From assembly GCF_000427445.1 (NCBI RefSeq), contig NZ_KE386496.1:2150506-2214505 (forward strand): a DNA stretch of 64,000 bases. The letters run 5' to 3'. Of this stretch, positions 25,891 to 44,747 are shown piece by piece. This stretch comes from Methylocapsa acidiphila B2. GTDB taxonomy: Bacteria > Pseudomonadota > Alphaproteobacteria > Rhizobiales > Beijerinckiaceae. How positions within the stretch are numbered: the stretch's first letter is position 1; each line of letters starts with the position of its first letter. Both the position numbers and the translations under genes were made by a program. A model generated the notes under the pieces. That model saw only the letters and a program-made list of their open reading frames with translations. It had not been told where the DNA came from and ran no database searches.

Positions 25891-26754
25891 ATGGCGGACG
25901 CCCACGTGAAACCGAACCATGATTATCACCTTGTCGATCCGAGCCCCTGGCCGATCGCCGGCGCCGCCGCCGCTCTGGTGCTGGCGATCGGAGCCATCCT
26001 TTGGATGAAGCACATCACCATCGGGGGCGCGGCTCCCGGAAGCTTGGTTTTCGGGCTTGGCGTCACCGCCCTCCTCGCCGTCGCCGCCTCCTGGTGGCGC
26101 GACGTGATCAAGGAATCGACCACCGGCGGCTATCATACCCCGGTGGTCCAGATCGGCCTTCGCTACGGCATGATCCTTTTCATCATGTCGGAAGTCATGT
26201 TCTTCGTCGCCTGGTTCTGGGCCTTTTTCGACGCAAGCCTTTTTCCGGGCGAAGCGATCGAATATTCACGCGCCGAATTCACTGGCGGGATGTGGCCGCC
26301 GAAGGGCACCGAGGTTCTCGACCCGTGGCATTTCCCGCTCATCAACACGATTATTCTGTTGACCTCGGGCGTCACCGTCACTTGGGCTCATCATGCGCTG
26401 CTCAAGGGCGATCGCTTCGGCCTCAAGGCGGGCCTGGCCCTGACCATCCTTCTCGGCGGTATTTTCACCTGCGTCCAGGCCTATGAATACGCCCATGCGC
26501 CTTTCGCGTTCAAAGGCTCCATCTTCGGCGCGACCTTCTTCATGGCCACCGGCTTTCACGGCTTCCATGTGATCGTCGGGACGATTTTCCTTGCCGTGAA
26601 CTTGGGCCGCGCCTTGGTCGGCCAATTGACGAAGGCGCATCATCTCGGCTTCGAATTCGCCGCCTGGTACTGGCATTTCGTCGACGTCGTCTGGCTGTTC
26701 CTCTTCACCTGCATTTACGTGTGGGGCTCCTGGGGGGCCGCGATCGAGCATTGA
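25891..26754 (+). CDS. ctaE: Cytochrome c oxidase subunit III
   Basis: This is the third core membrane subunit of the aa3 oxidase (287 residues, seven helices). Landmarks are HDYHLVDPSPWPIAGAAAAL, the helix with RYGMILFIMSEVMFFVAWFW, MATGFHGFHVIVGTIFLAVN, and the C-terminal AAWYWHFVDVVWLFLFTCIY. It is the last gene of the operon and is followed by a strong terminator. DUF983 and SURF1 genes, which often follow ctaE in this group, are instead 18 kb away. Confidence 0.97.
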   Translation: MADAHVKPNHDYHLVDPSPWPIAGAAAALVLAIGAILWMKHITIGGAAPGSLVFGLGVTALLAVAASWWRDVIKESTTGGYHTPVVQIGLRYGMILFIMSEVMFFVAWFWAFFDASLFPGEAIEYSRAEFTGGMWPPKGTEVLDPWHFPLINTIILLTSGVTVTWAHHALLKGDRFGLKAGLALTILLGGIFTCVQAYEYAHAPFAFKGSIFGATFFMATGFHGFHVIVGTIFLAVNLGRALVGQLTKAHHLGFEFAAWYWHFVDVVWLFLFTCIYVWGSWGAAIEH

Positions 26755-27392: not shown

Positions 27393-28490
27393 TCAGTATC
27401 TATGCTCGACGACGGCCTGGACGAAAGCTTCGGTTTCCCGCGCAATGTCTCCGTGCGCCGCCGCCAGGATCGCGCCGCCGATCAGCAGCATCGACTCTCT
27501 GCCGAAAAAATCGAGCATTTCCGGCGTGCGTTGGACCGTCATACCGCCGGCCGGCGTCGGCAGGCTCGGCGCCAAACCGGCGACGGGGTCGAGAAGCGCT
27601 CGTGAGATCGCCGTGCAGGTCGCCGGCGAATAGCCGAAACGGCCGCCATAATTGGGAAAAATCGAAGCGTCGGCCCCAATGAGCCGAAACAGCTTCGCGA
27701 AAACCGCGGGGGAAATCGCCGCGCCGCTCAGGGTCGGATGAGCGATAAAAGCGAAATCCGGATTTTCACGGCGCAACGCCTGGAAATTGGAAAATCCGGC
27801 GACGACGGGCGCGATGAGGACGGCGGCGAGCCCTTCGTCTCGAGCAATGCCGATCTCTCGCTCCATATCGGCGAGGCTGCCGGAAAGGCTCGGCGCGTAA
27901 ATCGTATGCTTGCCGGTGACGGCCGCCGCCGCGCGGATTGCCGCAGCGCAGGCCTTCACCCGATCCGCGAAGGGGCAATAGGCCTGGTCAGCGAGCCCGT
28001 GATCGTCCTTGACGAGATCAAGCCCCCCGAGCGCGAGCTCATGAGCGAGCTTTGCGAGTTCGGCGGCCGACAGCCCCTGCGGCTTGAGCGCCGAGGCCGT
28101 AAGCGCGCGGCCTTCCGCCTTCGCCCGCAGGCGAAGCCCGTCGACGCCGAGGCTCGGACCCTTGAAGGCCGCAAGCAATTCGTCGGGGAGGACGACATCG
28201 TGAACCCGGACGTCCTCATGAAGCGAGCTATTGCCGAAAAGCATATTGACGAGCTGGCCTGCGTCGCCCCCAACCGTCGCCGCAGCGAGTTCAATAAGGA
28301 CGTCGAACCATCCATCGCCGAGATCCGAGATTGCGAGGACCCTTCCGACGATCTCCGACAGGATTTTCGGGTCGCGAATGACGGTGAGAGGCGTCTCCAC
28401 GCTCTGTTCCAAGGCAATCGCCTCGGCGCGCGCTTCGATCGAACTCGCGTCGCCGCGAACGCGATAGGAGACTTTCAATCTCGCGCCCAT
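27393..28490 (-). CDS. RuBisCO-like protein (form IV)
   Basis: The protein (365 residues) has the RuBisCO large-subunit barrel but not the carboxylase signature. A catalytic Lys equivalent is present in ALKPQGLSAAELA (Lys136). The metal-site block is GGLDLVKDDHGLADQ, so the carbamylated Lys (161) and the Asp are kept but the usual Glu is His164. Phosphate-binding blocks appear as HPTLSGAA and LPTPAGGMTVQ. I see no loop-6 lysine in the usual place. It is therefore an enolase or isomerase type enzyme. With the neighbouring cupin, the likely substrate is methylthioribulose 1-phosphate. It starts 140 bases after the PKS-NRPS gene ends. Confidence 0.85.
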   Translation of the reverse strand: MGARLKVSYRVRGDASSIEARAEAIALEQSVETPLTVIRDPKILSEIVGRVLAISDLGDGWFDVLIELAAATVGGDAGQLVNMLFGNSSLHEDVRVHDVVLPDELLAAFKGPSLGVDGLRLRAKAEGRALTASALKPQGLSAAELAKLAHELALGGLDLVKDDHGLADQAYCPFADRVKACAAAIRAAAAVTGKHTIYAPSLSGSLADMEREIGIARDEGLAAVLIAPVVAGFSNFQALRRENPDFAFIAHPTLSGAAISPAVFAKLFRLIGADASIFPNYGGRFGYSPATCTAISRALLDPVAGLAPSLPTPAGGMTVQRTPEMLDFFGRESMLLIGGAILAAAHGDIARETEAFVQAVVEHRY

Positions 28491-28630: not shown

Positions 28631-31600
28631 TCACACGCTTGCGATGACCGAACGCATCGCGTCGTCCTTGGCCGAAAAGGTCCTGGCGATCGCCGGCGAG
28701 GCTTCGCGCGGGGCGCTCGGATCCGAAGGTTGGATCGGGCCAGCCGGCTTTGCGCGCGCGACGCTGCCGGACGGACCACGCCCCGCATCGACTCCTTCGA
28801 GCAAGGGTCGCAGAACCGCTGCAATCTGTGCGATGCCCTGCTCGTTTTGGAAGATTTCTTCATGCCATCCGGAGATCCGGTAAGAGCAAAGCCGCCCCTT
28901 CGCCAAATCCTTCCAGCCTAGATCAATGTCGAGAAGGTCATCGAGAATTTCATCGCTCCGCAAGAGGACGATATCGTCGGACGACGGCACCGGCCGAAAT
29001 CCGCTTTGCGCCGCGTCGAGCAGAGTTAACAAACGCCAGGTCTCCCAATCGTCGTTCCCTATTTGGGACGGATGGATCACGCCGAACTTCGCCAAAAGAT
29101 CAAGAATTCGGCTCTTGCGCACGAGCGTATAGAAAGAGAGGACTTTGGCGAGGCTCGCCCTCCCGCTCGCGACGAGCCCGACGCGATGCCGAAAAACGTG
29201 AAGATGCTCGGCGACGCCAAGCAAAAGTTTCCGACCTAGTGGAAGGTTGCGCTCATAGTCGGGCCGCACCGTGTCGGCCATGACGACCAGGGGAACCAAT
29301 TCGCCTTGCTCTCTCAACTGGCGCGCCGCCTCATAGGCGATGACGCCGGCGACGCAGAGCCCGATGAGGATATAAGGGCCCCGCGGTTGCGCGGCGCGAA
29401 TGACACGGACATATTCTGCCGCGACTTCCGTCATGCCTCCAGAGGGCAAACGCGCCTCGCCTTCGTCGAACAATTTGATGCCGAAAAACGGCCGATCCCC
29501 GAGCATTTTCGCGAGCTTGTAATACATTAGCGTATTGTGAATCGCGATGATCGGGGTTTTCGATCCCTCGGGCTGAATGGAAACGACGCTAGACGGCGCG
29601 ACTCGCTTTTCGAAGCGCGAAACGAGCTTAGCGAATTCAGCCAGCGTCGGCGCTTCGAAAAGCGCGCCGATACGCAGCTTGACTCCAAATGCGGCGGCGA
29701 CCCGCGCGACCATGCGGACGGCGAGAAGCGAATGGCCGCCGAGTTCGAAAAAATTCGAATTTCGATCGATCTCGTCGACCTCCAGCGCGTCGCGCCAGAT
29801 CTCGGCTAGCTTCAGCTCGATCTCCGAGGCGGCCGGAGACGTCGCCAGCCCGAGCGAAATGGCGCGCCCGTCGGGCCGCGGCAGCCGATCTCGGTCGACC
29901 TTGCCATTCGGCGTCAAAGGCAAAGCGTCCAGCGTCACCGCCAGCGAAGGGACCATGTGTTCGGGCAGCTTCACCCGTAAAGCGGCGAGCGCCGACTTGG
30001 CGATGGCGTCGGCATCGATCTTCAAGCCCTGGTCGGCTAATTTCAGATAGGCGACCATTCGTCTCGTCCCGCCATCCTCGCGAACGACGACGGCGTCGGC
30101 GAGACGGGAATCTGCGCGCAGGACGTTTTCGATCTCCTCGAGTTCGACCCGCTTTCCGTTGATCTTGACCTGGCGGTCCTTGCGGCCGAAAAACTCAAGC
30201 GCGCCATCGCGCCTTCGCCGCGCCATGTCGCCCGTGAGATAAAGCCGCTCCCCGCCGCCGAGCGGGCTCGGAATGAATTTCTCTCGCGTGAGTTCGTCTC
30301 GGTTCAAATAGCCGAGCGCAAGTCCATCTCCTCCGGCGCAGATTTGCCCAACAGACCCCGGCGGGGCGAGCTCCAACTCCGGCCCGAGAATATAGACGTC
30401 CGTATGCGCGATCGGCGTTCCGATCGGAACCGCGCCGCCGCCCAACCCTTCGCCAGGTATGCGATAGCAGCAGGTGAAAGTGGTGTTCTCGGTCGGCCCA
30501 TAGCCATTGATCAATTGAACGCCCGGCAAGCCCGCCAGGGCCTTCTCGATATGCGCGGGCGACAACACGTCGCCGCCCGCCAGAATTTGGCGAAGCGGCC
30601 TAAGCGCCCCTAAATTATGGTCGACGAGTTCATGAAAAAGGCCGGCGGTGAACCAAGCCGTCGTCGCGCCATGCCGCGCGATCGCTTCGCCAATCTCGTC
30701 GAGCGAGGGGCGCGGCTCGGGCACGATCGCCAGGCGCGCGCCATTGAGCAAGGCGCCCCAAATCTCGAAGGTGGTTGCGTCGAAAGCCAACGGCGCGAGG
30801 TGCAGAAAGGTTTCGTCCGCCCCGAAGCTCGCGTAATTTTGCCCACGCGTCAGCCGCACGACGCCCCGGTGCGGAACCATCACGCCTTTGGGCCGACCGG
30901 TCGAGCCCGAGGTGTACATGATATAAGCAAGATCGTCGCTGCTGCGTGCGACGTCGAGCGGGGCGTCCGTTTCGTCGGCGGACTCTTGCAGGGCCGTTTC
31001 AAGATCGACAAAGGCGAGTTCGCCGCCATCGAGCGCATGGGCCAAATCGCCTTGCGCCAGAGTGAGCGCCGGCGCGCAATCCTTCAGCATGAAGGCGAGA
31101 AGATCCGTAGGATAGCTCGGATCCAGCGGAACATAGGCGCCGCCTGCCTTCAAAATGGCGAGCAGCGCCGTGATCGCCTCGATCGAACGCTGAGACAAAA
31201 GACCGACCCGATCGCCGGGCCGCACGCCCAGCGCCTGAAGCCTGCGGGCAAGTCGGTTCGCCCGCCGATCAAGCTCGCCGTAAGTCACGCGCGCATCGTC
31301 GCAAAGCGCGGCGACGGCCTCAGGCGCGCGCGCCGCCTCGGCCGCAAAAATCTCATGAATCGGCCTTGCGTCGAGAGGCCCGACGGACGGTCCGCGCGAG
31401 GCGGCGATGAGTTCCGCGCGCTCGGACTCTGTCATGAGCTGCAGCTTCGACAGCGTCAAAGCGCCTTGCGTTTCATGAATGTCGCGGGTGATGGAGTCGA
31501 GGAGAACGCCGTAATAGCCGATCCAGCGCTCGATCGTCTCGGCGTCGAACAGATCCGTGTTGTAATCGCAATCGAGCCGGATCCCGTTTTCCTGCTCCGT

Positions 31601-34600
31601 CAAATTGAAAAAAATATCGAAATTGACGAAATGCTTCGGGTTCGGGTCGACCTCGACCTTCAAGCCCTCCATGCGAATCCCGTCGCCGAGACGTTCAAGA
31701 TTGAAGGCGGCCTCGACAAGAGGACGATGGCCAGCCCCGCGCGGCAGCGCCAACTTGCGCACCAGCGTCCCTAAGGTGAAGCTCTGATTTTCAAAGGCCT
31801 CCAGCATGAGCCGGCGAGTCGCCGAGAAATGATCCGCCAGGGTCGTCGCGCCGCTCCACTGGCCGCGCAAAGGCAGAAAACTCACGCAATGGCCGATGAG
31901 ATTGCCGTCTTCCACCAGCGCCTGTCCAGCGGCCGGGATGCCGACGACAACTTCCTCCTGCCCCGCAAGACGGCCGAGAAGCAATTCATATCCGGCGAGC
32001 AGCGCCGCAAACAGGGTGCAGCCTTGACGCGCCGCCGCCTTGCGAAAGGCCAGAGTCCGCTCGCCGTCGAGCCTCCGGCTGAGCGTGGCGCCGCGAAAAG
32101 TCTGCAACGCCCGCCGCGGCCGGTCTGTCGGCAGATCAAGGGGCGGCGGCGGGGCGGAGAATTGCCTGAGCCAGAAGGATTCGACCGCCGTTCCGCCTGC
32201 TTCCGACTGCTGCGCCCGTTCCTCCGCCCCATAACGAACGAAGCCAACCGGCGCAGGCAGGTCTGCGGCCGCTCCACTGCGCGCGGCATTGTAAAGCGCC
32301 GCCAGCTCGCTGATGATGACATTTGTCGACCAGCCGTCGCAGACGATGTGATGCGCCGTGACGACAAGGGCATGCTCCTGCGGTCCCCACCGCACGAGCG
32401 CGGCCCGGATCAGCGGCCCGTTGACGAGATCGAAAGGCGTTTCCGCCTCCGCCGCGAGCAACTCCCGCCAGGCGCGCTCGCGCGCCTCGACCGGCTTCAG
32501 CTCGAAATCGCATTCCCGGACAGCGATCTCGAGCGAAGGCGCGATGCGAATCGCCTCGCCGGTCGGCGCGAATGTGGCGCGCAAGGCCTGGTGGCGGGCG
32601 ACGACTTGATTGAGGGCCCGCGCCAGGGCGACGCGGTCAAGCGCGCCGCGCAGGCGCAAGGTCACCGATTCGTTAAAGGCGCAGGACGCCTCATCGGAAA
32701 GCTGAGCTGCGAGCCAGACCTCGGATTGGGCCTCGGTCAAAGGCGCTTCGAGAGCCGACTCATCCAGAACGGGCGCAGGAAGGACGCCGCCGCCTGGCCC
32801 CCCGCTCGGAGAACCGCCCGGCAAGAAGCCCGCATTCTGCATCGCGATAAGGCTGCTTTCGAAGGCCTCCGCGATCGCCTCGATGTCGGCGTCGCTATGC
32901 GCGGTCGTGAGGAAGCAGGGATAATGATCCTGAATATAGACCCCGCGCTCGAGCATGTGCGGATAGAACAGGCCTGAGAACCGGCTGACCGTCGCCAGGT
33001 TGAAGAAGAACAAGCTGCCGCAAGTCTCGATATGAACGTCGACGCCGCGCCGCTGAAACAGATCGTTGAGCCGCCGCACAAGGGCCGCCGTTCTGGCGTT
33101 CAGACCCTCCTGCAGCGCCGGACCTTTTTCCTTGAGATGGTTCAGCACCGCCCACATCGCCGCCAGAACAAGCGGATGGCGCACGAATGTTCCCGCAAAG
33201 AAGGTCACGCCGGCTTCGGGATAGGATTCGTCGCCATAGCGCCACATGCCGCCGTCGAGCGCGTCCATGAACTGCGCCTTGCCGGCGAGGACCCCGATCG
33301 GCAGCCCGCCGCCGATGATCTTGCCGTAGGTCGCAAGATCGGCGCGCACGCCGAAAAGGGCCTGCATGCCGCCCGGGTGCATCCGAAAGCCGGTGATGAC
33401 CTCGTCGATGATGAGCGCCGCGCCCGCCGCTTCGGTGATCGCGCGGATTTCCCTGACGAAAGCGGCCGGCTGCAAGTCGGGATGACGGCTCTGCACGGGC
33501 TCGACCAAGACCGCCGCCAGCTCGTCCGCATGCGACCTAATCCAGTCGAGCGATTCCGGCGCGCCATAAGGCAGCACGACCATGTTCTCGACGGATTCTT
33601 GCGGAATGCCGGCGGCGGCGGCGAGCGGCCGCGCGACTCCGTCCCGCAAGCTCCCCTTCACCAGAACTTCGTCGAATTGGCCGTGATAATCCCCAATGAA
33701 CGTCACGATGCGGGAGCGCCCGGTGACCGTGCGCGCCACCCGCATCGCCGCCATCACGGCTTCCGACCCGGTGTTGCAGAACGTGACCCGCTCGTCGCCG
33801 GTGAATTCGCTGAAAAGCTCCGCGACGCGGCCGGCCAACTCGGCCTGCGGCCCGATCGGGAAGCCCTTTTGCATTTGCGCCTCGACCGCCTCGATCACAA
33901 AAGGCGGGCTATGGCCGAACATGGTTTGTCCGTAGCCGTTCACAAGGTCGATGTAGACATTCCCGTCAACGTCCCAAAGGCGGGAGCCGGACGCGCGCTC
34001 GCCCACGATCGGATAGACGAGATCTTTCCATTCCTGCCGAAAGCCGGCGGCGGCGCGCGGATCGGCGAGAGTCGGCCGATGCCGGGCCGCCATCACCTTG
34101 GATTTCGGCGTGCGCGCGTTGAAGCGCTCGGTCAGCGCCTCAAGAGTCCGGTTTTGAGCCTCGGTCATCGCGGCGGCGGGGGCGTTGCGGGCCTCCGCGA
34201 CCATTTCGAAACGGGATTTGCCCTGTCCCGAGACCGTAGCTGCGCTCGACGGCTCTAGGCGCGCCGGCCCAGGCGCTGCGGGAACAGGCGCTGCGCGAGG
34301 CGTCCCGGAAACTGGCGCGTGAGGAACCGGCGCGGCGAGCGCGGCGGCGTCCGATCCGCGCAGCGCTTCGAGCTGTTGCGCCATCAACCGGCTCATGACG
34401 TCGAGCTGCTCGCGGATCACCTGCTCGACGGTTCCGACGGCGGCGCTCGCGCGCTCCGCCCGAGGCGCGGGAGCGAATGCAGAGAGCGAGGACGCCGGGA
34501 CAGAAACCGTGGAAGCAGGGACGGAAGAAACCGCCGGAAGCTGCGCGACGGCGGGCGCAGGCGTGGGCGGGAGCGTCTCCGCCAAAAAAGCAGCCAGAGC

Positions 34601-37600
34601 TGGAATCGTCGTCAATTCGCCGAGAAGTTGGCGAAATGTCAGCTTGACCTTGAATTCGCGCGCCAATTGCTGCGCGGCTTGGCTCAGAAATAGCGAATCG
34701 AAGCCCATCTCAAGAAAATTGGCGTCCGGGGCGATCCCCGCGAGCGAGTCTCCGGAGAGTTTCTCGAGGAGCGCGACGACGCGGCTTTGCGCCTCGGCAA
34801 TGCGGAGGTCTTCAGCCGGTGCGGCGTCGGATCGAACCGGGGCGACGGGCGCTGCTTGCATTACGGACACAATCTCGACAGAGGTTGATTCGAAGTTCGG
34901 CTCGGGCTCGACCGGATCCGGCTGCGCCGGCGCGCTGGCGTCTTTGCGCGAGGCGGGCGGCGCATCGATCCAATGCCGCGAACGTTCAAACGGATAGGTC
35001 GGCAGCGAAACCCTTCGCCGCCGCTCGCCCGCATGCGCATTCGCCCAATCAATCGCGACGCCGGCGCACCAAAGCCGCGACGCCGAGCGCGCCATCACGT
35101 CGCAATCGTCGGCCGGCTGTGAAGCGTCCGGAAGCGAGGCGAGTACGGCGCCGGCCTCCCCACCCGCGCCAGCTTGGCGCGCGAAAGTGGAAAGAACGAT
35201 CCCTGGGCCGGCCTCGACGAGGACCGGCGCCTGGCCCTCGGTCGCGCCGTCCCGCAAAAGGGTCGCAAGCCCATCGCCGAACCGCACCGGCTCGCGGCAA
35301 TGCCCGGCCCAATAGGCGGGAGAAACGGCCTGCGCCTCGGTCAGCCAGTCGCCGGTCACGCTCGAAACGCACCTGATCCGCGGCGCGCCGAGCCGGACGC
35401 CGGCGACGCGCTCCTCCAGGGCTTTGGCCGCCGTTTCCATCATCGGCGTGTGGAAGGCGTGCGACGTGTGCAGGCGGCGGGACATCACGTCCCGCCCGGC
35501 GAGAACGGCCTCGAGCTCGGCGACCGCCTCGTGCGGACCGGCGGCGACGCAAAGCGAGGGGCCGTTGACGGCGGCGAGCGCGAGCGACTCGCCGAGCAGG
35601 GGCGCGAGTTCGGCTTCAGGCAAGCGCACGGCGAGCATGGAGCCCGGCGGCGTGTCCTGCATCAGCCGGCCGCGCGCCGCGATCAGCGCGAGCGCGTCCT
35701 CCTGCGAGAAGACGCCGGCCAAACAGGCCGCGACGAATTCTCCGACGCTATGCCCAATCATCATTCGGGGTTCGACGCCCCAGCTGCGCCAAAGCGCAGC
35801 AAGCGCATGCCCCACGGCGAAAAGCGCCGGCTGGGCGAATTGCGTCTCTAGCAGGGTCTCCGCGTCGAGACGCTCCTCAGGCCCACCGTAAAGCAGAGCG
35901 CAAAGGTCGCGCCCGAGCAAAGGCCGCAGGATCTCGGCGCTTCGCCGCATGTCGGCGCGAAACGCCGGCTCGGTTTCAAAGAGACCCGACCCCATGCCGG
36001 GATATTGCGCGCCTTGGCCGGGAAACATGAAGGCGACGGCCGGCGCTCGCTCGCCCGCGCGACCCGAAATCAGGCCCTGCCCGGAAGCAAGTGAAGCGAT
36101 CAATTCGGATCGATCCCGCCCGACGCAGGCGGCGCGATGCGCGAAAGCTCGTCGCCCAACCTGCAGCGTGTAGGCCACATCCGCCAGCGGCTGCTCCGGA
36201 TGGGTCTCGAGATGTTGCGCCAGGCCCTTGCGCGCCGCCTCGAGCGCCGCTTCGCTGCGGGCCGAGACGACGAGTGTCTGGCTCGGGCGCAGCGAAGGCT
36301 CCGGCGCGGCGACCGGCGCCTCCTCGAGCACGACATGCGCATTGGTCCCGCCGAGCCCAAAGGAGCTGACCCCGGCCCGGCGCGGCCAAGCCTCGCGCGG
36401 CCAGTCGCGCCATTCCTTGTTCACGTAGAAAGGGCCGCCCTCGAAGGCGATATGCGGATTCGGGGTCTCGAAAAAGAGAGTCGGCGGCAGTTTCGCCTCG
36501 CGAAGGGCGAGCGCCGTCTTGATCAGGCCGGCGACGCCCGAGGCCGCGTCGAGATGGCCGATATTCGGCTTGATCGAGCCGAGGGCGCAAAATCCGATAT
36601 CGTCCGTGCCGGAGCGAAAAGCTTTCGTGAGCCCGGCGACTTCGATCGGATCGCCGAGCGGCGTCGCGGTGCCATGACATTCGACATAGCCGATGGTGCG
36701 CGGATCGACGTCGGCGTCGGCCAAGGCCGCAGCGACCGCCTGGGCCTGGCCGTTCGCGCTCGGCGCCGTGAAGCCCGCCTTCGCGGCGCCGTCATTATTG
36801 ACGGCCGAGCCGCGAATGACCGCGTAAATATGGTCGCCGTCGGCGAGAGCGTCCTCCAGTCGCTTCAGAAGCACGGCTCCCGCGCCGCCGCCGAACACCG
36901 TCCCGTCCGCCTTCGCGTCGAAGGTGCGGCATCGTCCTTGGGGCGAACCCATGGCGCCGTCTTGGGCGAGATAGCCGCGTCGCTGCGGCAAGGACACGGA
37001 CACGCCGCCGGCGAGCGCCATGTCCGATTGATACATGAGAAGGCTTTGGCAGGCTTGGGACACCGCGACCAAGGCCGTGGAGCAAGCCGATTGGACCGTG
37101 ACGCTCGGCCCGCGCAGATCGAGCTTGTAGGAGACCCGCGTGGCGAGGAAGTCCTGCAGGCTTCCGATCAGCTCCTGATAGCCGCCGATCTGGTATTCGC
37201 TGGCGAAGAGCTCGGCCGCGGCGTGATCCTGGCACACATGGCGCAGAAAATAGGTGCTGATGCTCGCGCCGGCGAAGACGCCGATGGCGCCGGAATAGGC
37301 GGCTGGGTCATAGCCCGCATCCTCGAGAGCCTGCCAGGCGCATTCCAGGAACAGACGATGTTGGGGATCGGTGAGCGCCGCCTCACGAGGGCGCATGCCG
37401 AAGAAGCCGGCGTCGAAAAGCTCCACGCCGTCGAGGATCGCGCGGGCGCGGACGAAATTCGGGTCATCGCGGATCGAGCGGTCGAACGAGTCCTCGAGTT
37501 CGGCGTCGGTGAAACGAGAGATGGATTCCACGCCGTCGCGCAGATTTCGCCACAGCGCCTCGACGTCGGCGGCGCCGGGAAACCTGCCGGCCATGCCAAC

Positions 37601-37654
37601 GATCGCGACGCCCGTGGACGCAAGGGACGATTGGGCGAAAGCATCCTGCTTCAT
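28631..37654 (-). CDS. Hybrid PKS-NRPS with aminotransferase domain and terminal thioesterase
   Basis: This 3007-residue megasynthase has eight domains: KS (about 14-440; Cys191, His327, His367), AT (540-850; GHSVG Ser636, HAFH at 732-735 typical of malonyl-CoA), ACP (950-1030; Ser987), an Ala/Pro linker, class III PLP aminotransferase (1180-1600; Lys1445 in [10 protein letters not shown]), condensation (1630-2080; HHIVCDG at 1768-1774), adenylation (2095-2590; [11 protein letters not shown]), PCP (2605-2675; Ser2642) and thioesterase (2700-2950; nucleophile position Cys2767, His2931). There is no ketoreductase: the beta-keto group is expected to be aminated, as in the McyE and MycA/ItuA synthases. 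The specificity residues I read (D,A,F,F,L,G,G,T,F) look aliphatic, valine-like. It overlaps the upstream NRPS gene by 4 bases. Confidence 0.93.
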
Positions 37655-40600
37655 GACGCGGACTGCGCCCGCTTGCGCCAGATGCGCCGCAGCGCTTCAT
37701 TCTGCCGCTGCTTGCGATCTTGAAAGTCTGCGATCGGCAAATTATCCGAGTCGCGCGTCCGAAGCAGAGCCGCCTGGCTCCGAACCGTGGTCTGCTCGAA
37801 GAGGGCGGTCATGGGGACCTCGTCGAATTGCGCACGAATTTCTTCATGCAAGGCGATCAAATCTAGCGACGCGCCGCCGAGGTCGAAGAAATTGGCGTCG
37901 AGCCCGACATAGGGCAGCTTCAGGATCTTGCGCCAGATCGCGGCGAGCTTCTCTTCGAGTTCGCTGGCGGCGAGCTCCAGCCGCGGCTTGTCGGCGAGAG
38001 CCGCCGCTTCCGGCGTCGGCAGCGCGTTGCGGTCGATCTTGCCGCTCAGCGTCATCGGCATGCGTTCGATGACGATGAGCCGAGCCGGCGTCATGTAATC
38101 CGGCAGCGCGGCGCGAAGATGCTGCTTCAGCCGTTCGACCAAGGGCGCCTCCGGGGCTCGGCTATCCAGCGCCTCAACCCGTCCGGGCGAAGCCGCCACA
38201 ATATAGCCGATCAGTTGCTTGCCCGAAACTCCCTCCCTCGTGACGACCGCCGCCTCGCTCACTTCGGCATGGGAGAGAAGCTGCGCCTCGATCTCGCCGA
38301 GCTCGATTCGATAGCCGCGGATCTTCACCTGATTGTCCGCCCGCCCGACATATTCGATCTGACCGTCGCCGCGCCAGCGCGCCATGTCGCCGGTGCGGTA
38401 GAGACGCTCGCCGGCGCCGCGCGCGAACGCGCTCGCGACGAACCGTTCCGCCGTCAGCTCTGGCCGCCCGACATAGCCCCGCGCCAAGCCGGCGCCGCCA
38501 ATATACAGCTCGCCGACGACGCCGGCCGGAACCGGATTGAGCGCGGGGTCGAGAATATAGAGCTGCGTGTTCCAGATCGGCCGGCCGATCGGCGGAAGCG
38601 AGACGTCGGCGCTTTCCCTCGCGACGAAATTGCTGACCACATGCGCCTCGGTGGGCCCATATTGATTGATCAAGGCGCATTGCGGCTCCGCGCGCAACCA
38701 GGCCGACAGATCCGGCGTCAGTCGAAGCTGCTCCCCCGCGGTGATGATCTGACGCAACTCCGGCAGTCGCGCGCCGCTGGCCGCCTTCACCGTCGCCAGC
38801 GGCTGCAAGACCGCCGCCGGCATGTAGATCCGCTCGACAGCCTCCCGGCGCAGCAGCGCCAGAAGCCGGCGAAAATCCCGGCGCTCGTCCTCGCTCGGCA
38901 CGATCACCCCGCCGCCCTCGTTCCAGGCGCTGAACATCTCCTGGAAGCTGACGTCGAAAGAGAAGGAGGCGAATTGCAGGGTCCGCGCGCAGCCGGGCAG
39001 CGCCGATTTCTGCCATTGCAGAAGATTGACCAAGCCCGCATGCTCGAGCGCAGCGCCCTTCGGCCGGCCAGTCGATCCCGAAGTGTATATGCAATAAGCG
39101 AGATTTTGCGGCGTCGAGACGGGTTCGAGATCGTCGTCGGGTAACGCCTCGGCTTCGGCCCAATCGGCGTCGATGCGCCATAGGCGCGCCGTGGTCGCCG
39201 GAAGCCCGGCGACGAGCCGGTCCTGCGTCAGCACGATGCTGAGTCCGGCATTTTCGATCATATAGGCGAGCCGCTCCTTCGGATAGCTCGGATCGAGCGG
39301 AACATAGGCCCCGCCGGCCTTGAATACGCCGAGCACGCCGACCGCCATGTCGAATGAGCGCTCGACGGCGAGGCCGACAAACGCATCGGGGCCGACGCCG
39401 AGGCGGCGCAGGCGCCTTGCAAGCTTATTGGCTTTGGCGTTCAGGGCGCCGTACGTCAGCGTGGAGCCGCCGAAGACAACCGCCGGCGCGTCGGGCCGGC
39501 GCGCGGCCTGCGCCTCGAAAAGCTGATGCAGGCTGCACGGCTCGACCGACGCGCTTTCGCCCCGGCTCCATTTTTCGAGAATTTCGATTCGCTCATCCTC
39601 CGACAAGAAATCCACCGCCGTGAGCCTCCGCGTCGGATCAGCTGTGATTTGGCCGAGGAGACGAATGTAGCGTCCATGAATGGCCGCCGCCTGGCCCGCA
39701 TCGAATTGACCAAGCGAATAAGCATGGTCAAGTTCCAGCTCATCTGTCGCCCGCAGCGTCAGAGTCCAGGAAGGCTCGACCGATCGGCCGCTTGTCGCGC
39801 GCGCCGCCGCCGAACCAGACTGCCCGAGCCCGGCTTGATCCGCGGCCCCCTGATCAAACGCCCCCCGGTCGATCAAACCTTCGCCGAGGATGACGATCGA
39901 ATCGAACAAATCTCCCTCGACGCTCGCCCAACGGCGGATCTCGTCGGCGCGCGCGCCCGAAAAATCCTGCGCGATCAGCAACTCGTCCCGCACGGACCGA
40001 AGCCAGGCCCCGACCGACTGGTCGGGCCTCGGGCTCAGAATCGTCGGCGGGATCTCGTCGAGCGGGCGCGATCCGTCCGACGATCGCGTAGCGGGAGCCG
40101 TCTGGACCCCGAAGGCGATCGTCCGACGCCCGCAAGAGCGCTGCAGCAGCAATGCCCAAGCGCTCAAGAGGACAGTTTCCAACGAAACTCTTTCGCAACG
40201 GGCGAAACGCCGCAATCGATCCGTCTCCGCCGCGTCGAGCAGCATACGGAGCCGGCCCCGCTCGGAGAGGCCCGGCTCATTCGCGCGAATATCGCGAAGC
40301 GCGCCCTCCGAGGCGGCGGCGAGCAGACTCGGCTCGCGTAAGGCTCCAAGCTTTTCCTTCCAAAACCGCTCCATCCGCTCGCGCGCGAACTCAGCCGCGC
40401 GCTCGGCGCGACCGACGAATTCGAGCTGGCCGTCGGTCCGCTCTCGAACGAGATCTCCAGTGCGATAAAGCCAGCCGCGCGATGGCCCGCCGAAGCTATC
40501 CGGAACAAATCGGGCGGCCGTCAATTCAGGCCGGTTCAAATAGCCAAGCGCGACGCCCTGGCCTCCGACGCAGAACTCGCCGGCCTCGCCTAGAGCGAGT

Positions 40601-41655
40601 CGCTGAAGCTTGGCGTCGACGATCCGGGCCGCGTCATGCGCGGCAGGCCGACCAATCGGAAGCTCGGCCTTGTCGTCGAAATCGGGCGGGATGTTATAAA
40701 GGCAGGCGAAGCCGCCGAGTTCCGTCGCGCCATAGCTGGTCGCGAGACGGCAGCCAGGAAGTAAATCGAGAGCTCGGCGCAGATGCGTCGGCGAGGGAGC
40801 GCCATGGATGACGAGCTGGCGCAGCGACCGGAGCCCGCCTCGAACCCGATCCGTCATCGCTTCGAACGCCGAGGCGCTCATCACCGCCGCGCTTGCGCCC
40901 GCGCGTTCGATCGCATCCTCGACCGAGCCGCCGTCGGACGCGACGGCCAGCGCGGCGCCATTGAGCAAAGCCGCCCAGATTTCGAACGACGCCTCGACCG
41001 AGCCGAAGGCGGCCTTATGGAGCACGATGTCGCTCGGGCCAAAAGGTGAGAATTCAGGGGCGGCGAAACGGGCGACCGCGCGATGCGGAACCAGGACCCC
41101 GACCGGACGCCGGTAGGACTCGTCGCCATAATCGACAAAGGCAAGATCGTCGGCCGAAGCGCCGCAACCGAGCGCCGCCGCGCTCTCCCGGCCGATGGAT
41201 TCAATTTCGGCGTCGAGCAGAATCGTCGGCGCCGTCCACGCGCGGTCTTGGGGCTGCGTGGGGACAAGGCGCGAATCGGCGATCACCGCTGCAAGTTCCG
41301 CCTCCTCGGCGACAAACGCCAATCGATCTAGCGACCAAGCGCGCAGGAGGGGGACGAAAGCGCCTCCGCTCTTCAGCACGGCGAGCATCGCCAGCACGAA
41401 CTCTGCGGTTCGATCGAGATAGACTCCGACGCGGCGCCCCCGGCCGACGCCTTTCGCCGTCAAATAGCGGGCCAGGCGATTGGATTGGAGATCGAGTTCG
41501 GCATAGGAAACGAGCCTGGGGCCGCAAATGATGGCGGGACGCCGCGCTCGATCGTGATCCGCCCCGACGGCGTCAAAAAAAGCGCCGACGATCGTCCCGC
41601 GGTCGGACGCCGCGATTTTCCAATCGAGCCCGTCTTGCATTAAACGGTGCGACAT
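37651..41655 (-). CDS. NRPS with degenerate N-terminal A domain, half C domain, and A-PCP loading unit
   Basis: This 1334-residue protein has three parts. Residues 1-420 are an adenylation-like domain whose A3 loop reads [18 protein letters not shown] instead of [11 protein letters not shown], and which stops at [20 protein letters not shown] without the C-terminal A-subdomain. Residues 430-690 resemble only the second half of a condensation domain (FWKEKLG onward, no HHxxxDG). Residues 705-1215 are an intact adenylation domain ([15 protein letters not shown], terminal Lys in [11 protein letters not shown]), followed by a PCP (Ser1263 in [11 protein letters not shown]). The residues D,V,Q,Y,I,A,Q,V,V in the pocket resemble proline codes. 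It precedes the hybrid gene with a 4-base overlap and probably loads the starter amino acid. Confidence 0.9.
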
Positions 41656-42743: not shown

Positions 42744-43616
42744 ATGCGAGACGAACTTTTTTTTAGAGACGAAGAACCCGCGGAGCAGTGCCGCGGGGCG
42801 TTGAACAGGCGGCCGTTTCGGATCGGCCATGCGCTCGCCGGCCATCCATTGCTTTCGCTGGACGCCCTCGCCGCTCAAGCCGAGGCGGGGAGCAAGCGCA
42901 AGGACGGGTTTTATTTCGACGCTGGCGATCTTGCCTTCACCGATAAATGGGGCGCAAAGCCGACGCCCAATTTGACCGTCGCGCAAATCTTCGACCAGAT
43001 CGAAACCGTCGGCGCGTGGATCGTCCTGCACCACCTCGAAGCCGATCCTCGTTACAAGGCTCTCCAAGACGAGTTCGGCGAGTTTTTTCGGAAATCCATC
43101 GCCGATCCGGACGACGCCAAACTGTTGAGCAATCCCGATTTCCAGGTCTTCATCTCCTCCCCGCGGCGCAAGACCCCCTACCATTTCGACGAGGAAACGA
43201 ACTTCCTCATGCAGATCCAGGGCTCCAAGACGATCTGGATTTGCGATCCGCTCGACCGCGACGCGACGACGGAAGACGAGATTGAGCGCTTCTACGCGGG
43301 GCAGGTCCTGACCGCCGGCAATTTCAAGCCTCATGCCGAAGCGACGGCGCGGCGATTCGATCTTTCGCCCGGCGAGGGCGTCCACATTCCCATGCACGCT
43401 GGGCATTGGGTGCAAAACCATGACGCCGTCTCGGTGTCGATCGCGCTCGACTTCGAATATCCGCGCTGGAAATACGCCAACGTCTATCAAGCGAATTACT
43501 ATCTGCGGAAGGCTGGTCTTTCGCCTCGGCCCCCGGGCCGCTCGCGCCTCTTCGACCGGCCAAAATCGGCGGCGATCAGCGGCCTGCGGGCGGTCAAAAA
43601 TCTAGTGCGCTGCTGA
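42744..43616 (+). CDS. JmjC/cupin_8 oxygenase-like protein
   Basis: The protein (290 residues) has a double-stranded beta-helix with a likely Fe(II)/2-oxoglutarate site: His and Asp in RKTPYHFDEETNFLMQIQGS and a distal His in GVHIPMHAGHWVQNHDAVSV. The Lys/Thr in QGSKTIWICDP resembles the cosubstrate-binding strand. Such enzymes hydroxylate amino acids, peptides or proteins. It begins the divergent transcript opposite the NRPS operon and is followed by a second protein of the same superfamily, so tailoring of the peptide product is a reasonable guess. The ATG at 42744 follows AAAGGG. Confidence 0.82.
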   Translation: MRDELFFRDEEPAEQCRGALNRRPFRIGHALAGHPLLSLDALAAQAEAGSKRKDGFYFDAGDLAFTDKWGAKPTPNLTVAQIFDQIETVGAWIVLHHLEADPRYKALQDEFGEFFRKSIADPDDAKLLSNPDFQVFISSPRRKTPYHFDEETNFLMQIQGSKTIWICDPLDRDATTEDEIERFYAGQVLTAGNFKPHAEATARRFDLSPGEGVHIPMHAGHWVQNHDAVSVSIALDFEYPRWKYANVYQANYYLRKAGLSPRPPGRSRLFDRPKSAAISGLRAVKNLVRC

Positions 43617-43829
43617 GCCGCACGCGGCATTTTGCCAGCGTGGAAGGGATGAACCGCGGCGCCTGAGACGTCAGCCCGGGCTTGGCGCGAATGTCACGAC
43701 TACGCTATGATCGGGCCGGACCAGCCGGGGTCCGTCCCCCAAGTCTTGAATTCAGCCATGGTCGTTTCGGCGCTTCAGCGCGCCGCCGACCAATTCGGGC
43801 GCAAATCTATTGCCAGCGAGGAGAATTTT

Positions 43830-44747
43830 ATGGAGACGACTGAAACCTTGGCGATAGCGCGGCGGCGCAACCTCCCCTACGCCGAATTCGAGCGCGACTA
43901 TCTAATACCCAACAGGCCGGTCATCCTGACCGGCTGCATGGAGAATTGGCCGGCGCTCTCCAAATGGTCGCCGGAATTTTTCAAACGGGAATATGGCGCG
44001 GCGTCGGTGACGGTCGAAGGCGAAGAGAGCACGCTCGGCGCGTTCATCGACCGCGTGCTCGACTCGAGCCCGGCGCATCCATCGCCTTATCTCAAGGATG
44101 TCGTCGTCAAAGATCTCGGCGGCCGCAAACTGATGAACGACATCGAGCCCTTCTGCGAATATTCCTTTCCGAATTGGCTGCCGGGCGACTATTTGGTCTC
44201 GAAGGTCAAGAATCTGTTCAATTCCGCGCAGATTGAGCTTTTCATCGGCGGCGAGGGGACGAAGCTCGGCGAGATCCATTACGACTATATCCACGCCCAC
44301 ACCGTGCTCTGCCAAATTTACGGGCGCAAGGCGTTCACGGTCTTTCCGCCCGAAGACGCGCCTTGGCTTTACGCGAAAGGCCCGATGGCCGCGATCAAGG
44401 ATCTCGATTCGGTCGATCGCGAGCGCTTCCCTCTGTTCGACCGCGCGACGCCGATTTCCTTTGTGCAGGAGCCCGGCGAGATCGTTTTCCTGCCGAGCGG
44501 CTGGTGGCACACGACTCGGCTGCTGTCGGCCTCGATCGCCGTCGGCGTCAATTTCGCCAACGCCTCGAATTGGGCGGCCGTGATCCAGGATCTTCGCGAG
44601 TCCTCGTCGCTGGCGCGCCTGCCGCTTGTGGGGACGGCGCTCGCCACCTATCTTTCCGCGCTCGGCCGCGCCAAGGAGGCCCGTGGTCCCTTCGCCGGCG
44701 CCGACGAGCTCGGCATTGTCCCCGCGCAAACCCGGCTGGAGGCGTAG
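43830..44747 (+). CDS. JmjC/cupin_8 oxygenase-like protein
   Basis: This 305-residue protein belongs to the cupin_8/JmjC group (asparagine- or arginine-hydroxylase-like). The N-terminal LPYAEFERDYLIPNRPVILT is typical. Metal ligands are His and Asp in GEIHYDYIHAHTVLCQIYGR and His in PGEIVFLPSGWWHTTRLLSA. The ATG at 43830 has GAGGAG seven bases upstream, which decides the start over an open frame reaching 43707. It lies 213 bases after the first JmjC-like gene on the same strand. The two proteins are clearly divergent in sequence, so this is not a recent duplication. Confidence 0.85.
   Translation: METTETLAIARRRNLPYAEFERDYLIPNRPVILTGCMENWPALSKWSPEFFKREYGAASVTVEGEESTLGAFIDRVLDSSPAHPSPYLKDVVVKDLGGRKLMNDIEPFCEYSFPNWLPGDYLVSKVKNLFNSAQIELFIGGEGTKLGEIHYDYIHAHTVLCQIYGRKAFTVFPPEDAPWLYAKGPMAAIKDLDSVDRERFPLFDRATPISFVQEPGEIVFLPSGWWHTTRLLSASIAVGVNFANASNWAAVIQDLRESSSLARLPLVGTALATYLSALGRAKEARGPFAGADELGIVPAQTRLEA

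Follow-up and report, generated by a model that had tools for sequence, protein, structure and literature searches.

A two-gene nonribosomal peptide-polyketide line of Methylocapsa acidiphila B2: a contracted derivative of an orphan three-protein family, with a predicted beta,gamma-diamino peptide product

The window analyzed here, i.e., a whole stretch of 64,000 nucleotides (C2:2150506-2214505 of the two-contig genome of Methylocapsa acidiphila B2, 4,103,433 bases), carries a nonribosomal peptide synthetase/polyketide synthase (NRPS/PKS) line. As the original prediction had it, the line consists of two large genes; both are on the minus strand and they overlap by 4 bases (gene 1, 41655-37651; gene 2, 37654-28631). 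It is probably a working two-protein line derived by contraction of a conserved three-protein line, and its product would be built from proline, one malonate, an amine and valine or isoleucine. The domains are adenylation (A), condensation (C), peptidyl carrier protein (PCP), ketosynthase (KS), acyltransferase (AT), acyl carrier protein (ACP), aminotransferase (AMT) and thioesterase (TE). Loci of relatives are designated by L and genomes by G, followed by a number. The features are the following, with their basis in brackets.

37651..41655, minus strand: gene 1, 1334 aa, dead A - half C - intact A - PCP (open reading frame (ORF), Pfam, hidden Markov models (HMMs) built here)
40366..41610, minus strand: relic of the ancestral loading A core, residues 16-430 (clade, identity, motif loss)
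39559..40365, minus strand: C-terminal half of a condensation domain, without HHxxxDG, residues about 431-699 (Pfam Condensation 184-455 only; alignment)
38008..39558, minus strand: intact loading A, proline-type pocket DVQ(M/Y)IAQVVK, residues 700-1216 (signature; PDB match)
37738..37983, minus strand: ancestral loading PCP, residues 1225-1306, DLGGASL (identity to L036; alignment)
28631..37654, minus strand: gene 2, 3007 aa, KS-AT-ACP-AMT-C-A-PCP-TE (ORF, Pfam, motifs, HMMs built here)
36320..37615, minus strand: ketosynthase (PF00109/PF02801; ACSTAL; identity to L036)
35165..36037, minus strand: acyltransferase, malonyl-type HAFH (PF00698; GHSVGEF and HAFH)
34535..34807, minus strand: ACP (PF00550; EMGFDSL)
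32825..34162, minus strand: class III aminotransferase, Lys1445 (PF00202, i.e., Aminotran_3; YGKIIGGG; match to 6kfm)
31400..32767, minus strand: condensation domain, HHIVCDG (PF00668; motif)
29870..31357, minus strand: second A domain, DAFFLGGTFK, Val/Ile-like (signature; tree)
29600..29842, minus strand: PCP derived from the third gene of relatives (block identity; alignment)
28850..29557, minus strand: thioesterase with Cys at the nucleophile position, GLCVAG, where Ser is usual (PF00975; motif)

The domain order that had been predicted for gene 2 holds. The Aminotran_3 domain is fused behind the ACP of a KS-AT-ACP module (Pfam and the HMMs built here) and is indeed a class III aminotransferase placed as in McyE and MycA. 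Its Schiff-base lysine, Lys1445, sits in YGKIIGGG, within [37 protein letters not shown], and this lysine (K281 in alignment A1) is invariant in the 16 rows of the alignment; the structure of the MycA aminotransferase (6kfm) is matched with 441 bits. Inactivity of the KS or of the aminotransferase had been considered as a way in which the prediction might fall; at the motif level both are intact (ACSTAL and Lys1445). No ketoreductase (KR) is listed in gene 2 by Pfam at E<=0.001, as had also been claimed. The HAFH motif of the AT is taken here to denote the malonyl type. The Cys of the TE is not unique, since the best PDB sequence match, AB3403 (4zxh), likewise shows Cys at the TE nucleophile position in its alignment.

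Gene 1 had been read as A-PCP. This describes only its working end, because the gene is chimeric and begins with the dead ancestral A, followed by an incomplete C domain. Before the last PCP, Pfam detects two AMP-binding stretches and the second half of a Condensation domain (profile positions 184-455 of 456). In the first A (residues 16-451) the ATP loop is lost, reading [11 protein letters not shown] where relatives have Y/FTSG.TG.PKG. The likeness to the loading A of relatives stops near residue 429 (the A8 hinge), before the A-sub half, which is absent. Residues 1-430 share 44-49% identity with the loading A domains of five Methylocella relatives, which share 56-71% among themselves; in the tree this relic lies inside the Methylocella loading-A clade (support 99/98), with an end branch of 1.2 vs. 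a median of 0.53. The intact loading A groups with the loading A domains of L045 and L047 (100/100), and when 298 genomes of the window's family were searched with the half C and this A, the best matches were ordinary NRPS modules (41-52%). The PCP is 88% identical to that of L036 gene 1 in the block 1240-1279. Clade, identity and motif loss identify gene 1 as a chimera, in which a decayed ancestral A is followed by a half C-A unit and then by the ancestral PCP.

The relatives were gathered with the AMT. Among the 298 genomes, 27 were matched at E<=1e-60, the window's own included; the 26 others were taken, three distant ones were dropped and 76 non-duplicate loci from a contig scan were added, giving 99 loci. 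The scan listed 80 of 490 confirmed relatives, so that the broader spread is sampled and not counted. L059, L060 and L061 were left out before counting (AMT about 53, 53 and 35% identical, different layout, Ser TE in L059 and L060), and L073, L077, L117 and L144 were left out as duplicates of genomes already taken. The C and TE motifs were counted with HMMs built from the sequences of this analysis.

The 99 loci typically read A-PCP / KS-AT-ACP-AMT-C-A-PCP / C-containing protein ending in TE. They span several Proteobacteria orders, Acidobacteria and Eremiobacterota, with members in other Methylocella, Methylobacterium, Bosea, Labrys, Ancylobacter, Nitratireductor, Reyranella, Paraburkholderia, Acidobacteria and others. 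The third protein was found in 87 loci: 86 times separate (C-TE, C-PCP-TE, C-A-PCP-TE and near variants) and once fused to the AMT protein (L039). A C-TE gene was not found in 12/99 loci, seven of them short (4.6-16.6 kb) and the other five 20-21 kb in length. The TE nucleophile of the relatives is Cys in 78/87 and Ser in 9/87. The C domain behind the AMT has HH in 99 of 100 rows (window included, thus 98/99 relatives), the other row being gapped; in the terminal C domain, HH and the Asp of HHxxxDG are kept in 34/87 relatives, HQ stands in 29 and other residues in the rest. In place of the second catalytic His of this terminal C, 53/87 relatives have Gln, Ser or Ala, beside a Cys TE. The internal A is Gly-like (DIL...) in 75/93; among the starter-or-other A domains 54/85 fit an aliphatic pattern and 0/85 begin with DVQ. 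The third module looks vestigial or non-condensing in many lineages, as judged from its motifs, and its loss in the window is therefore easier to understand.

Domain order and homology identify the window line as a contracted and rearranged derivative of this orphan family. It shares with the family the order through AMT-C-A (the KS-AT-ACP-AMT-C-A-PCP protein being homologous through the AMT, with an AMT 53-81% identical to the 15 other rows of alignment A1), the Cys TE and, in Methylocella relatives, the coxC/SURF1 site. A loading A-PCP is present in the window as the last part of the chimeric gene 1 and not as a plain A-PCP protein; the PCP and the relic A of this gene have homologues in the loading proteins of the family. 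The window differs from the family in three respects: (i) the third C-containing module is absent and its PCP-TE is fused behind the A of gene 2; (ii) the second A has the Val/Ile-like signature instead of the Gly-like DIL...; (iii) the starter A is of the proline type. The PCP of gene 2 has a block identity of 0.65 to the third-gene PCP of L036 vs. 0.25-0.30 to the internal and loading PCPs of L036, and it aligns with the third PCP of L039. A TE directly after AMT-C-A-PCP occurs in 0/99 loci of the relatives. Because the third, C-TE-bearing module is absent, the window is filed as a derivative and not as a full member of the family.

The tree partner of the second A is the internal A of L039 (98/91), within the starter-type clade. 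L039 encodes AMT-C-A-PCP-C-PCP-TE in one frame, with a weak third C (30 bits, HHLAVDM); the shared A swap, the fusion and this weak C make it look like an intermediate. A search at the level of the taxonomic order (397 genomes, 14 matches including the window's own genome) bears on the lack of a TE directly behind AMT-C-A-PCP in relatives: 12 of the 13 other matches end at query positions 1489-1547 of 1771, near the end of the PCP, and the 13th (G607) covers 454-1640, without AMT. These ends are supporting evidence only, because a local alignment may stop early.

For the loading A, proline is the predicted substrate. Its best single-stretch PDB match is tyrocidine synthase 2 (403 bits), a module that we take to be proline-specific. 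Two chains score higher as a whole: linear gramicidin synthase A reaches up to 624 bits as the sum of two A domains, its best single stretch giving 314.5, and 8xjz_C reaches 442 bits although none of its stretches passes singly. Position 278 of the signature is M by script and Y by hand reading. In the extract of PMC12283262, Val236 with Gln239 is the commonest proline pattern (59/71 proline domains), DALWIGGTFK is a Val code, which DAFFLGGTFK equals at 7/10 positions, and DILQLGMIWK is a Gly code, which the DILALGMIWK of the relatives equals at 9/10. The second A is predicted to take Val or Ile, and the relatives are expected, on their signatures, to perform the same steps with an aliphatic starter and Gly.

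The same scaffold with other starter or extender amino acids (e.g., pipecolate or another cyclic one; Ile, aminobutyrate (Abu), norvaline) is the most serious alternative and is a real possibility, if not the favored one. Ten-residue signatures predict weakly and the two pockets are 1-3 residues off printed codes; what speaks for proline in particular is the Val236/Gln239 pair together with the tyrocidine synthase 2 match.

In the preferred reading, the last A-PCP of gene 1 would load the starter, predicted to be proline, and KS-AT-ACP would extend it by one malonate. The embedded AMT would then convert the beta-ketone to an amine, with glutamine as donor if it is MycA-like (the donor of MycA is Gln, according to the extract of PMC3870968). 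The resulting intermediate would be 3-amino-3-(pyrrolidin-2-yl)propanoyl-ACP. The C domain would couple it with the second amino acid (predicted Val or Ile) held on the adjoining A-PCP, and the Cys thioesterase would release the product as an acid or by ring closure. By formula, [M+H]+ is 258.1812 (Val) or 272.1969 (Ile) for the linear product and 240.1707 (Val) or 254.1863 (Ile) for the ring-closed one. The best reading of the product class is thus a beta,gamma-diamino («aminostatine»-like) peptide. The product logic that had been proposed (an amino acid plus malonate, beta-amination, a second amino acid, release by the TE) fits the intact domains; the part of it that rested on gene 1 as a plain A-PCP was a misreading.

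A wider statement is possible, though we hold it tentatively and with somewhat less than even confidence: the window line and the wider orphan family would both make aminostatine-type peptides, i.e., malonate-extended amino acids that are aminated and not reduced, and in Methylocella the product would have been changed by natural splicing. The loading A would have received a half C-A cassette at its A8 hinge, so that the former A core stays in frame but is dead; the vestigial third module would have been lost, with its PCP-TE joined to the end of a starter-type A.

Several findings weigh against the reading as a working Pro-malonate-amine-Val/Ile line. The proline signature has Gln at position 322, where the consensus has His, and position 278 is uncertain. 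Five full-length relatives (L049, L079, L083, L085 and L114; 20-21 kb) show no C-TE gene, which indicates that some relatives end otherwise; L079, L083 and L085 are Solimonas. A dedicated phosphopantetheinyl transferase (PPTase) is absent beside the window's line, while about half of the relatives' loci have one: a PPTase sequence group lies near the family lines in 57/99 loci, an approximate count, since open frames were grouped by linking similar ones (Pfam identifies the four members sampled as PPTases). Two PPTase matches elsewhere in the window's genome, for their part, count in favor of the reading. The large relic in gene 1 means that the whole line could be decaying. Lastly, the exact signature DAFFLGGTFK is not among the codes in the extract of PMC12283262.

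Decay would make the line a relic whose gene 1 rearrangement was damaging and which yields no product any more. A dead A, a half C and a lost third module are all found in one locus, as decay would have it. However, the 4341 codons of both genes contain no stop and no frameshift, and the motifs of KS, AT, ACP, AMT, C, both remaining A domains and the PCPs are intact. The identities to L036 are 82% for KS, 75% for AT, 69% for ACP, 81% for AMT and 67% for C, vs. 48% for the relic A; thus the working parts have been held and the relic A has not. Decay of the whole line is consequently regarded as unlikely.

It is less likely still that the first A and the half C of gene 1 are not scars, i.e., that they have a structural role or bind a substrate or partner and that loading is more complex than A-PCP. 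About 700 codons are still open in frame and several core motifs are left in the first A (e.g., LYRTGD, by alignment), which speaks for such a role. On the other hand, an open frame is needed anyway for the translation of the downstream A-PCP, and the first A has no ATP loop, no A-sub half bearing the A10 lysine and no PCP of its own, and diverges fast. Attack of the proline nitrogen on the ACP thioester before the C domain acts, giving 1-aminopyrrolizidin-3-one and no dipeptide, is highly improbable: the chemistry alone speaks for it (a free gamma-amine five atoms from the thioester), and the intact C domain, of an HH type kept in nearly all the relatives, follows directly.

The preferred reading, a contracted line making a diamino peptide, has relatives among described systems. 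It had been stated that no described pathway has just this set of domains. No pathway with the exact set was found among the loci sampled here or in the open-licence literature searched; the core, for its part, belongs to a stereotyped family, and similar lines were already tabulated in 2013. The claim of novelty is thus partly supported: the exact set seems to be new, and its kind is already known, as a contracted branch of a stereotyped orphan family for which no known product was found. In the extract of PMC3870968 (table 2), A-CP-KS-AT-CP-PLP1 lines, with or without C-A-CP, are tabulated without known products (Salinisphaera F7QBN5, Thiocapsa F9UAS6, Pedobacter C6XWU5) and predicted to be of Nrp-Mal-Gly types; a Cys TE and a contraction are not in the description given there.

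MycA (mycosubtilin) and McyE (microcystin) likewise have an Aminotran_3 domain that immediately follows an ACP and precedes a C domain. The chains that they aminate are fatty-acyl or Adda chains, whereas the chain here is predicted to be a single amino acid plus malonate. The detoxin/rimosamide/miramide lines resemble the window in extending proline by malonate and in having a Val/Ile partner, but a KR makes a beta-hydroxyl (MirE KR-T-TE) and no aminotransferase figures in the description in the extract of PMC9503745; in the window the AMT stands in place of the absent KR. According to a survey of methanotroph gene clusters, type I polyketide clusters are more numerous in Beijerinckiaceae strains; this line is not mentioned in the extract of PMC11964084. 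PMC5563371 turned out to have no relation to the line.

Statine isosteres with an amine for the hydroxyl are known mainly as synthetic protease-inhibitor motifs. If the prediction is true, a bacterial line that makes them would give access to new chemistry, and one compound would annotate dozens of genomes, because the family is widespread, stereotyped and without a known product found. The splice may also matter to NRPS engineers. According to the extract of PMC8097286, natural NRPS exchanges lie mostly inside A cores and keep the A-sub/T interface; as the joints in the window lie at the A8 hinge, inside the C domain and at the PCP border, they form an informative exception.

The line lies between coxC (25891-26754) and DUF983/SURF1 (44985, 45419). 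In six Methylocella relatives (L036, L037, L038, L039, L041 and L042) the line has SURF1 and thrC as flanking genes, and coxC is on its far side, within the stretch examined, in L038, L039, L041 and L042. The line is therefore old at the cox site in part of the genus, and a recent island inside the cox operon is rejected on account of these shared flanks. Four more loci of the same genus (L050-L053) have none of the coxC/SURF1/thrC neighbors in the stretches examined.

A second, larger NRPS cluster lies outside the window (C2:2768603-2796075) and holds 9 of the 11 Condensation matches of the genome. All 11 are in the window or in this cluster, which the Condensation search places at C2:2768603-2794746; hence the missing third module is not a stray gene elsewhere, and relocation of a C-TE gene within the genome is rejected.

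A PAF-acetylhydrolase-like alpha/beta hydrolase group is found in 47/99 loci of the relatives (e.g., L037:16936-18390 and L105:17013-18158) and was not seen behind the window's TE. Of four members examined by Pfam, three match PAF-AH (two weakly) and one matches nothing. A Dlt-like transfer of the product to a polysaccharide, which two conserved flanking gene groups had suggested, is rejected, as these groups are the PPTase and the PAF-AH-like one.

A RuBisCO-like protein (27393-28490, minus strand) adjoins the line. Its best PDB match is 3qfw (384 bits) and it scores under the cut-off of every NCBIfam equivalog listed. The gene adjoins the line in six Methylocella relatives (L036, L037, L038, L040, L041 and L042). 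In G172 and G185 it is apart from the line, and in G198 the line is present but the gene was not found. It adjoins coxC in G126, which the AMT search did not match; it is thus treated as a neighbor and rejected as a tailoring enzyme.

Two Cupin_8/JmjC-type oxygenase-like genes (42744-43616 and 43707-44747, plus strand) diverge from the line across an intergenic region of about 1.1 kb. They are possible tailoring hydroxylases. The first has a homologue (39%) near the line of L036 and a shorter match (37%, 75 aa) near that of L037.

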